Assembly (NCBI RefSeq): GCF_035207705.1
Contig: NZ_CP128187.1
Span: 930,001 to 994,000 of the forward strand
From: Maribacter sp. BPC-D8
Lineage (GTDB): Bacteria; Bacteroidota; Bacteroidia; Flavobacteriales; Flavobacteriaceae
Reading direction: 5' to 3'
DNA: 64,000 nt
In this document: piece by piece, positions 4,366 to 6,364 of the stretch
Layout of the letters: each line of letters starts with the position of its first letter
How positions within the stretch are numbered: the first letter of the stretch is position 1
Made by a program: the position numbers and the translations under genes
The notes under the pieces: model-generated
The model's database searches: none
The model's input: only the letters and a program-made list of their open reading frames with translations
What the model was told of the DNA's origin: nothing

Positions 4366-4914
4366 TTATTTTATTATTTCAATTCCCTTAGTTACATCTC
4401 TGAAAAATGTTTCCAGTTCTAATTTAATTTTTACAACCTGTTCAGGATTTATGATTTCTGAATTATTAATGTCAAATAATCGTGTCTTTGAATCAGAATA
4501 TGATAGATAATAAATTGTAGAGTCAGTCTTGTAATTTTCTTCGTAATAAGGTCTGTCATAATCGTATGCCAGTTGTCGTACGAACTTGAATTCGGTATTT
4601 CGATTTTTTTTCGTCCAATAGGTATAGTTCAGTTTACCAGTTTCACCGTATAGCCAAAAGTCTAATACATCGTATTCAAAGTTATTGCTTTGAAAAATCA
4701 CTAAATCACCTCCATCAGTAGAATGGTCGTAAAGTTGAATAGTATCAGTTATAAATTTCGTTTTATTTTTCTCAAAATCTTGAAGAAACTCAAAGTCTTT
4801 AAGAGTAGTGGTTGATTTTTTAGTTTCTACGTTTTCTGTTTTCTTTTTGGTGTTATGATTTACACCGCAGGAATACAATCCGATAATTAGTAAAATGTAT
4901 AATATTCTATTCAT
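4366..4914 (-). CDS. Orphan lipoprotein A of an attC-like cassette pair
   Basis: I do not recognise the family. The frame could be opened upstream at 5034, but the extra 40 residues would translate the attC-like repeat. The ATG at 4914 directly begins a lipoprotein signal (MNRILYILLIIGLYSCG, lipobox Cys at residue 16), so it is preferred; product 182 residues. After a Lys/Thr/Glu-rich tether comes a mixed alpha/beta body with many Tyr and Asp residues (YDRPYYEENY, YYLSYSD). The start lies 19 bases after the GTTAGGT core of the element at 4932-5031. Role unknown; location in the periplasm or outer membrane is inferred from the signal. Confidence 0.65.
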   Translation of the reverse strand: MNRILYILLIIGLYSCGVNHNTKKKTENVETKKSTTTLKDFEFLQDFEKNKTKFITDTIQLYDHSTDGGDLVIFQSNNFEYDVLDFWLYGETGKLNYTYWTKKNRNTEFKFVRQLAYDYDRPYYEENYKTDSTIYYLSYSDSKTRLFDINNSEIINPEQVVKIKLELETFFRDVTKGIEIIK

Positions 4915-4931
4915 ATGTTTTCTTATACCAG

Positions 4932-5031
4932 ACCTAACATTTCCGATAGCTATCGAGATTAGCGACTTCTTAAATAAATACAGACCATTCGATTTAGCAG
5001 CATAATCCGCAATTCGCTTATTTTTTGTTAG
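4932..5031 (-). repeat. attC-like imperfect inverted-repeat element between two lipoprotein genes
   Basis: About 100 bases bounded by CTAACA (5031-5026 on the minus strand) and its complement TGTTAG (4939-4934). Read leftward, the right end GTTAGGT fits the GTTRRRY core of integron attC sites exactly; the left end TGCTAAC is an imperfect RYYYAAC. A perfect palindrome CGATAGCTATCG lies near the right end. The stop codon of the upstream lipoprotein falls inside the left end and the next ATG follows the right end by about 19 bases, which is the layout of gene cassettes. I also recall translated copies of this repeat (ADYAAKSNGLY, SLISIAIGNV) as spurious N-termini in other Flavobacteriaceae. No integrase gene is in the window. 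Confidence 0.4.
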
Positions 5032-5785
5032 CAATTGTTTTAATTGGTTTTCCTGCTAAAGTTTCGAAATTGTAATAATTTTCACTTTCGTAAATTCTAA
5101 AGACCTTTTTTACTTCGCTTTCGGGGATTTTTTGAATCAGTTTTTCAATTTCTTCATCAGAAATTGACTTGTCAGCAAAAATTCTAAAATGAATTTCAGA
5201 TTCTAATTTTCTCTGATGATATCTATCTAGTGGTTGAAGATTTCGTTTAAAATTGATAACGTCTTTGTTAATATAATCCATTCCATTTCCAAATTCCGAA
5301 ACTATAGTTGTTTTGCCATTAGTATTTTCGATAAAAAATTTTAGCCCGTAACTTCCTTCTAACTTTATCCTTTGAATTTTGTTATCATATGGTAATTTGA
5401 AAGGTACACCACTTATTTTGCTTAGGAATTCAAAATAATTATCTGCTCGAATTAAATTGAAATTTCGTCCCATATTTGAATCTTTAACTTTAATAAAAGA
5501 TAGGGTATTGTTATTATCTGATAGGGCATATTCTAAAATCATTGCTGTCGTATCCTTTATAAAAGTTTGATAGGGCCACTGTTCAATATAATCAAATTCA
5601 ATTTTTGATTCGTTCGCGGTCCATTTTACATTTTGTGTATTCCATTCCATAGATATTAAGCTATCAGGGTAAAAATAGAATCTAGTAAATCCATCATTTT
5701 CCCTACCGTACCACTTTCCATTTAATTTCTTTTCAAATGAGTTTTGTCCGCAAGACAATAATGCCAAAGCAGGAAGTAAAATCAT
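5018..5785 (-). CDS. Orphan lipoprotein B of an attC-like cassette pair
   Basis: Family not recognised. ATG at 5785 is chosen because it directly starts a lipoprotein signal (MILLPALALLSCGQ, lipobox Cys at residue 12); 12 in-frame codons upstream to 5821 lack signal character. The mature part, about 240 residues, opens with LNGKWYGRENDGFTRFYFY, reminiscent of a lipocalin-like beta-barrel strand, followed by more strands and an alpha-helical C-terminus. The last codons (TIANKK) and stop lie within the attC-like element. No promoter was identified. Function unknown; the pairing with the next lipoprotein through the repeat is the main clue that this is mobile accessory DNA. Confidence 0.7.
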   Translation of the reverse strand: MILLPALALLSCGQNSFEKKLNGKWYGRENDGFTRFYFYPDSLISMEWNTQNVKWTANESKIEFDYIEQWPYQTFIKDTTAMILEYALSDNNNTLSFIKVKDSNMGRNFNLIRADNYFEFLSKISGVPFKLPYDNKIQRIKLEGSYGLKFFIENTNGKTTIVSEFGNGMDYINKDVINFKRNLQPLDRYHQRKLESEIHFRIFADKSISDEEIEKLIQKIPESEVKKVFRIYESENYYNFETLAGKPIKTIANKK

Positions 5786-5914
5786 TATAAAGTGTTTTTT
5801 ATTAAAAATAGCGGGCAACATACAAATATGTGTAAGTGAGATAATAATAAATATACGTTTTTCTTCGAACGCTTATTTTAACGCCATTCAGAAAACTTAA
5901 TACTAGTGGATAAG

Positions 5915-6364
5915 TTACAACACCTTTCTAAAACAAACACTATTCTCCATCAGCTCATACGGTGGGTAGTTATCAATAATTGTGTAATTATTCTTTTTGT
6001 AGAGTGCAATGGCTTCAGGCTGGCGCAATCCTGTTTCTAAGACGGAGTAGGTGTAATTCAATTCTTTTGCCCACTCTTCTAATACTACGAGTACTTTTGA
6101 GGCAATTCCTTTACCACGAAAATCTGGTTGTACGTACATGCGTTTAATCTCAACCGAGTCTTTGTTGAATTCTTTGAAAGCTCCGCAAGCAACAAGGGTT
6201 TCATCAGTATAAAAGACAACACAGTTTTTCAACGCATCAATACCATTAAATTGTGCATAGAAAGTATTCTCGTCTCCATCTCGTAATGCCAAGTCTGCAT
6301 CAAGTAGCGCTACTAATTCTTTGAAGTTTTGGTTATCGCTAGAGTGACGTTTATAGTAAAGCAT
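5915..6364 (-). CDS. GNAT-family N-acetyltransferase
   Basis: A 149-residue single-domain GNAT enzyme, which moves an acetyl group from acetyl-CoA to an amine. Motif A is clear at residues 76-89 (MYVQPDFRGKGIASK), holding the pyrophosphate-binding RGKGIAS loop; motif B follows with the usual ALYKKNNY segment near residue 126, and NYPPYELMENSVCF at the end is common in this subgroup. Substrate unknown. It is 14 bases upstream-facing to the metallophosphatase gene in the same direction, so co-transcription with the 5'-nucleotidase genes is likely. Confidence 0.85.
   Translation of the reverse strand: MLYYKRHSSDNQNFKELVALLDADLALRDGDENTFYAQFNGIDALKNCVVFYTDETLVACGAFKEFNKDSVEIKRMYVQPDFRGKGIASKVLVVLEEWAKELNYTYSVLETGLRQPEAIALYKKNNYTIIDNYPPYELMENSVCFRKVL

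Follow-up and report, generated by a model that had tools for sequence, protein, structure and literature searches.

A repeat in Maribacter sp. BPC-D8 as a probable recombination-site remnant of an integron-like gene-cassette system

A half-site between two lipoprotein-like genes

The genome of Maribacter sp. BPC-D8 is one contig of 4,783,464 bases, of which positions 930,001–994,000 form the window, the 64,000-nucleotide stretch analysed here. Two lipoprotein-like genes lie on the minus strand of the window, a cassette gene encoding a 267-aa protein (5018..5821) and a smaller gene that follows it (4366..4914), and the repeat under study lies where they adjoin. Pfam scans gave no match above cut-off for the product of the former and none at E ≤ 0.01 for that of the latter. 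As originally predicted, the stop codon of the first gene falls within the repeat, and the minus-strand start codon of the second, at 4914, lies 19 bases past a CTAACA motif. A longer, TTG-started open reading frame (4366–5034, minus strand) runs through the repeat and would have a false N-terminus. A leucine-rich-repeat gene (PF12799, 3422–3769) is among the small genes downstream of the repeat, and these are perhaps further decayed cassettes.

The repeat corresponds to the left half of a cassette site, with positions 4957..5048 (minus strand) matching positions 19–110 of a 256-position site model (nhmmer 38.7 bits, E 4.1e-11). A profile of the left half scored 38.8 bits at the repeat and 3.8 bits at the second-best place in the window, while no place in the window scored above 1.4 bits with a right-half profile; the true 3' end, which lies more than 100 bp further along in full copies, is missing from this site. 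The original prediction described a 100-bp imperfect inverted repeat with CTAACA/TGTTAG ends, a GTTRRRY core at one end and a 12-bp internal palindrome. TGTTAG is present where it had been placed (5026–5031), as is CTAACA (4934..4939, TGTTAG on the minus strand), but only the former coincides with a true site end, the R''-like minus-strand TTGCTAAC (5027..5034), which aligns with the AAC end of other copies. The second 'end' is interior in an alignment of 13 copies from the same genome, and the GTTRRRY match, which does exist on the minus strand of 4932–4938, is likewise interior to full sites and marks no recombination end. The palindrome CGATAGCTATCG was confirmed at 4944..4955 as an optional inner part of the site, some full copies having it and others not. 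When folded alone as DNA, the window copy was no more stable than chance (z −0.03; 85 of 200 shuffles equally good), so that a conserved inverted repeat is unsupported for this copy. The CTAACA/TGTTAG inverted repeat was also ruled out as a recombination unit, its CTAACA end aligning with GGATTTAGC in the interior of full sites.

Among 36 other genomes searched, a homologue of gene 5018–5821 was present in one relative (G020; 71% amino acid identity), where it forms an intact cassette with a full site before it, the start GTTAGCAATAAT, the end ACTATTGCTAAC and a full site after it. The nucleotide sequences are 76% identical over 814 columns; the similarity begins near the gene start, reaches the left half of the site and goes no further, which marks the window copy as a stray, damaged cassette. 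The start of the window cassette was sought upstream of gene 5018–5821 and not found. The window copy is probably an isolated half-site that is not functional.

Cassette arrays and the structure of their sites

The window repeat, used as a query against its own genome, gave 29 alignments at E ≤ 10, 11 of them at E ≤ 1e-3, and 13 looked homologous when aligned. Two fuller sites used as queries gave at least 40 places at E ≤ 1e-3 (40 of 66 candidates scored) and at least 26 (40 of 57 scored), respectively. After merging with a 280-base joining rule, the matches listed include at least 49 distinct site places in 11 clusters, the window copy being a cluster of one. The sites stand between small, mostly one-gene units, in line with the suggestion that copies of the repeat separate small genes. 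Most aligned full sites are ~200–280 bp long (~85 to 280 bp with short sites included). Read along the genes, a full site begins with YAACAAAGCCTAAACGTAATGCGG or a variant, continues with a middle part that varies and may contain palindromes, and finishes with CCGCACTACGCTTAGCC, a few bases and then GTT. The first cassette of locus L082 ends in a site of ~85 bp (~5890–5950), near the size of an ordinary attC. In several relatives, contig breaks are frequent at sites or at the attI-like site described below (for example G024:C1:9-89, G022:C12:110-180 and the end of L140), and draft genomes therefore conceal much of the arrays.

We assembled 37 oriented loci, comprising 23 with a recombinase and 14 arrays. 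All 137 sites scoring above 20 bits point in one direction within their locus, although the 14 arrays were oriented by the array itself, so for these the result means only that no array is mixed. In the 23 recombinase loci, all 64 such sites lie downstream of the recombinase gene and are co-oriented with it. The cassettes form direct-repeat arrays and mostly carry one small gene each. A cassette starts with GTT(N7)A(A)T and ends with (A)(C)T(N7')AAC, the two N7 stretches being complementary. In an integron the crossover falls within the site, and each end of a cassette therefore bears one half of that cassette's core.

To assess end pairing, the 7 nt that follow GTT at the start of each interval were matched against the reverse complement of the 7 nt that precede AAC at its end. 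Across 58 consecutive pairs of sites the mean was 4.88 of 7, and none of 10,000 shuffles was as high (mean 2.62, largest 3.33). The two ends within one site, taken as a control, matched at 2.85 of 7 against a shuffled mean of 2.56, with 493 of 10,000 shuffles as high. In recombinase-headed arrays the mean over 46 pairs, 13 of which (from L074, L081 and L082) also belong to the 58-pair set, was 5.46 of 7 (shuffled mean 2.55, largest of 5,000 shuffles 3.48). At the level of individual intervals, 58 of 94 consecutive ones, 354–2815 bp long, pair at 6 of 7 or better; the remaining 36 fall short of this, and the many long ones among them may hide missed or decayed sites. The longest open reading frame of at least 50 aa is on the array strand in 51 of the 58 pairing intervals and on the other strand in one, six having none, and median coverage by the frame is 0.83. 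Fifteen pairing intervals belong to the window genome; several encode proteins with lipoprotein-like N-termini, as judged by eye, and one contains an insertion sequence.

Comparison of the 58 intervals with all loci revealed three cassette families that recur across arrays, in L076 and L079 (90% identity), in L136 and L077 (83%), and in L081, L122, L126 and L135 (68–80%, including their sites), together with weaker partial matches between loci. Different arrays have cassettes in common at 68–90% identity. The original prediction was to be given up if the repeat were single-copy, or if its copies flanked no cassettes and showed no recombination-linked variation; instead we found arrays, cassettes, sharing across arrays and varied cassettes at an identical attI-like site. 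The best interval match of all (L071, L086 and L087; 98.5%) was ruled out as a shared cassette since it represents an IS3-type element.

This element, which encodes HTH_Tnp_1 and rve proteins, begins 14 bases past the GTT of a site at three places in the window genome (L071 9011; L086 1385, reverse strand; L087 10048), and in two loci (L071 7321; L084 15276) its right end directly adjoins the AAC end of a site. By analogy, the element may target cassette sites; some insertion sequences are known to target attC. In genome G001, a 520-aa transposase (DUF772 and DDE_Tnp_1_6) is encoded beside a site in two loci (L083 6257–7819 and L128 2905–4467), and in both adjoining sites the AAC end is replaced by CTTGTGCAACAGGCAC. 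The product of the first cassette of L081 (7141–8712) is SIR2-like (PF13289); such proteins are frequent in phage defence, and the cassette contents merit a defence survey.

The long part of the site is predicted to fold. Across 80 diverse sites the L''/L' stem has 977 of 1356 cells in Watson–Crick pairing in register, compared with 296–403 at offsets of 1–3, and whole-arm shuffles among sites gave a mean of 713 and a maximum of 780. On the gene strand, L-stem positions 7 and 12 are A.C in 88% and 95% of sites, and R position 11 is A.C in 49 of 58; the A.C positions of the stems become T.G wobbles on the opposite (bottom) strand. Over the whole L stem, A.C or C.A occurs in 200 cells and G.T or T.G in 27, while position 2 is C.C, unpaired on either strand, in 41 of 79 sites. 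Both the R and the L stem are paired in register and contain no single-base bulge. In computed folding of the modelled excised junction the bottom strand was the more stable in 47 of 53 cases; the difference is small (−35.0 vs −32.0 kcal/mol for bottom and top; shuffles of 25 sites, −17.0), and the count for R positions 4–10 of the fold is biased in that the cassettes were chosen for pairing at 6 of 7 or better. The attC site also acts as its bottom strand, through extrahelical bases, one of which is contacted by the α-I2 helix according to the excerpted text of PMC3053210. Because the recombinase described below is short of residues in the region of the α-I2 contact, we infer from the sequences that strand choice would work differently from that of attC.

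The recombinase and the start of the arrays

The arrays of related genomes begin behind a tyrosine recombinase of 375–380 aa (~376) that matches PF00589 and PF13495. Residues R236, K261, H325, R328, H351 and Y360 are invariant in 20 sequences. Some 105 residues precede the core, an N-terminal part that a fold search of the recombinase did not identify. A match at E ≤ 1e-40 was present in 33 of 60 genomes sampled, whereas none at this level was found in the window genome. At E ≤ 1e-100, the level judged from the match table to separate cassette-linked recombinases from the rest, the recombinase occurs in 22 of the 36 genus-set genomes (G000–G035; in G006 in a shortened frame) and, in an order-level draw, in 6 of 196 genomes and 6 of 73 genera. 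The cassette system is commonest in this genus within the genomes searched. A scan of named genomes gave at least 80 loci. The named carriers of close recombinases, together with a Bacteroidales-type SRP RNA, point to a flavobacterium as the source of the window genome.

Canonical IntI, which the original prediction proposed to look for elsewhere, was absent by TIGR02249 above its cut-off from all 40 genomes scanned, the window genome included. Six cassette recombinases scored 196–207 bits with this model (cut-off 265), compared with 373–488 for six IntI proteins, and in the region of the IntI insertion the recombinase has 21 residues where IntI4 (2a3v) has 64, 43 fewer. The top match was the NCBIfam XerA/integron-integrase model NF040815 (220–243 bits), with five of six above its cut-off of 220. 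Structure models of the recombinase and of the small protein described below were used for fold searches only; that of the recombinase retrieved XerA first, with IntI4 ranking 6–8, and the closest solved relatives of the core are Xer/XerA proteins (PDB 4a8e, 5hxy and 1a0p). IS91-type elements may carry an accessory tyrosine recombinase; this identity was dropped, as the recombinases stand at the head of arrays, accompanied by an attI-like site and by a conserved small gene.

The layout at the head of the arrays is regular. In 26 of 27 loci the recombinase end is followed, usually by way of a palindrome, by the GTT of the first cassette 41–86 nt on (110 nt in L139), a distance that for a few loci was measured from where the match ends instead of from the stop codon. 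The first site had a readable left end in 16 of 23 recombinase loci and paired with the cassette start at 6 of 7 or better in nine. The remaining loci needed a de novo search, in which ten bases of the cassette start were picked by eye and a complement ending in AAC was sought within 3.5 kb. An exact complementary cassette end was recovered in 18 of 27 loci, and one with at most one mismatch in 24 of 27; in the three loci that failed, 705, 236 and 124 bp of sequence follow. In the control, starts from other loci gave 5 exact matches in the same stretches and 90 with at most one mismatch, in 698 comparisons each. Among the matches listed, complementary ends also place the system in Winogradskyella ursingii, Seonamhaeicola aphaedonensis and Flavobacteriaceae bacterium S0862; with the first site model, one site was found in the first of these and none in the other two.

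Cassettes vary beside a constant attI-like stretch. In G022, G011 and G035 the recombinase 3' ends are 97% alike and an identical 44-nt attI-like stretch follows, and beyond the GTT identity falls to 0.43–0.56 over 60 nt (random mean 0.49, largest 0.80). Three further recombinases are only 75–85% alike, and their attI-like stretches are 98–100% alike. The neighbours of attI are not always different, as the first cassettes of G005 and G010 resemble each other (0.90 over 300 nt). In L129 (G005) a 451-bp cassette stands in tandem at attI, its successive copies being 97.6 and 99.3% alike.

A divergent small gene with Cys motifs is located upstream of the recombinase in all 29 cassette-linked loci, at a distance of 56–130 bp (10 bp in L140, measured from the open frame). 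It has ~110–135 codons, its identity falls to 27% in L144, and at E ≤ 1e-3 it was found in none of 10 more distant recombinase loci. The representative 123-aa protein (L081 10015–10386 and equivalents) was modelled with a mean pLDDT of 90.8, and a fold search gave no match at E ≤ 0.001.

Interpretation and comparison with known systems

Sequence comparison indicates that the window repeat is very probably a recombination-site remnant of an integron-like gene-cassette system. In the mechanism that we propose, the recombinase would cross over at or beside the GTT, excising cassettes as circles whose core is made up of the two complementary ends and inserting them at the attI-like site. Its substrate would be the cassette site folded as its bottom strand. 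The window genome, in which no recombinase of this clade was found, retains arrays, and the window copy would be a stray cassette that lost half of its site. In outline this accommodates both alternatives originally put forward, a cluster of attC-like sites lacking an integrase, as site clusters occur in a genome with no cognate recombinase found, and a different recombination unit particular to the group, here a unit other than a standard integron that is commonest in the genus within what was searched.

A more specific account is that of a second integron lineage, in which a XerA-like recombinase without the IntI domain would have independently taken to folded cassette sites, telling the strands apart by fixed T.G wobbles instead of extrahelical bases and working with the divergent Cys-rich protein, in Flavobacteriaceae and some relatives. 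We regard this account as evenly poised between holding and failing. If true, a cassette platform lacking the IntI domain would represent another way to achieve gene capture, with a cassette pool that searches keyed to IntI should miss, and the origin of integrons would become testable by comparison of the two systems. Our open-access literature searches turned up no earlier account of the system.

The system could alternatively be a true integron whose strongly diverged integrase descended from IntI and lost the additional domain, in which case it would be a sub-group within the integrons rather than a lineage of its own. In layout the system agrees with an integron at every point, TIGR02249 ranks among the better-scoring families, and the data do not reject a joint clade of the cassette recombinases with IntI (AU p 0.168), which leaves room for common descent. 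Against this, the best tree of 104 recombinases places the 29 cassette-linked rows in one group (100/100) and the seven IntI rows in another (100/100), with recombinases lacking detected arrays nearest to the cassette clade, and both the 43-residue shortfall relative to IntI4 in the insertion region and the TIGR02249 scores below cut-off point the same way. We consider descent from IntI rather unlikely, though a serious contender. Improbable, in our view, is ordinary duplex recombination at a short core of GTT and its complementary neighbour, as in Xer or pdif systems, with the foldable part doing something else, such as ending transcription. The cassette-end pairing of ~15 bp would suffice for a duplex core and the nearest solved relatives are Xer/XerA proteins, but compensating changes preserve the folding of the long part, and both stems share one strand bias, seen in the excess of A.C or C.A over G.T or T.G in the L stem and in the A.C mismatch found at R position 11. 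A dispersed transposon-like repeat (MITE) or transcript-end hairpin with no role in recombination would fit many copies of one sequence family between genes and the insertion sequences at some sites, but is very hard to reconcile with a single direction per array, arrays that begin behind a recombinase, and ends whose complementary partner is at the preceding site, on the far side of the gene, instead of within their own site, where the two ends pair scarcely above chance (2.85 vs 2.56 of 7) in place of MITE terminal inverted repeats.

Integrons are the model bacterial gene-capture platform, and the cassette system resembles them, specifically the sedentary chromosomal type, in its unidirectional small-gene cassettes, AAC/GTT ends that covary within the cassette, inner L''/L' stem, better computed folding of the bottom strand, attI-like site beside the recombinase and varying array content. 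Unlike integrons, it has a recombinase without the IntI additional domain, with a ~105-aa N-terminal part and, in the best tree, a position separate from the sampled IntI sequences; a conserved divergent small gene; sites mostly of 200–280 bp with ~15 bp of end pairing; and fixed A.C positions (bottom-strand T.G) in place of a single-base bulge in the R and L stems. The definition of integrons in the excerpted texts of PMC9668308 and PMC8138268 includes an integrase with the IntI-specific additional domain, which the first of these, in the part drawn on here, describes as necessary for integron gene capture. The cassette recombinases lack this domain; complementary AAC/GTT cassette ends, an attI by the integrase gene and a one-direction array are all present. 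In the section of the IntegronFinder 2 survey drawn on here, the sole complete integron named for Bacteroidetes proper is that of Salinibacter ruber (PMC9024848).

Like a CALIN, the window genome combines numerous site places with no cognate recombinase found at the level searched; it differs in that the cognate recombinase of its relatives is not IntI and that the sites are defined by their own profile and not by published attC models. XerA and other Xer proteins are the nearest solved relatives of the recombinase core, but Xer, which resolves chromosome dimers at dif, comes without cassette arrays. Gene units bounded by short duplex tyrosine-recombinase sites also occur as pdif modules, which are served by the host XerCD. 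The cassettes share with these modules the placement of gene units between tyrosine-recombinase sites, and differ from them in their long foldable sites, their single direction and a recombinase of their own.
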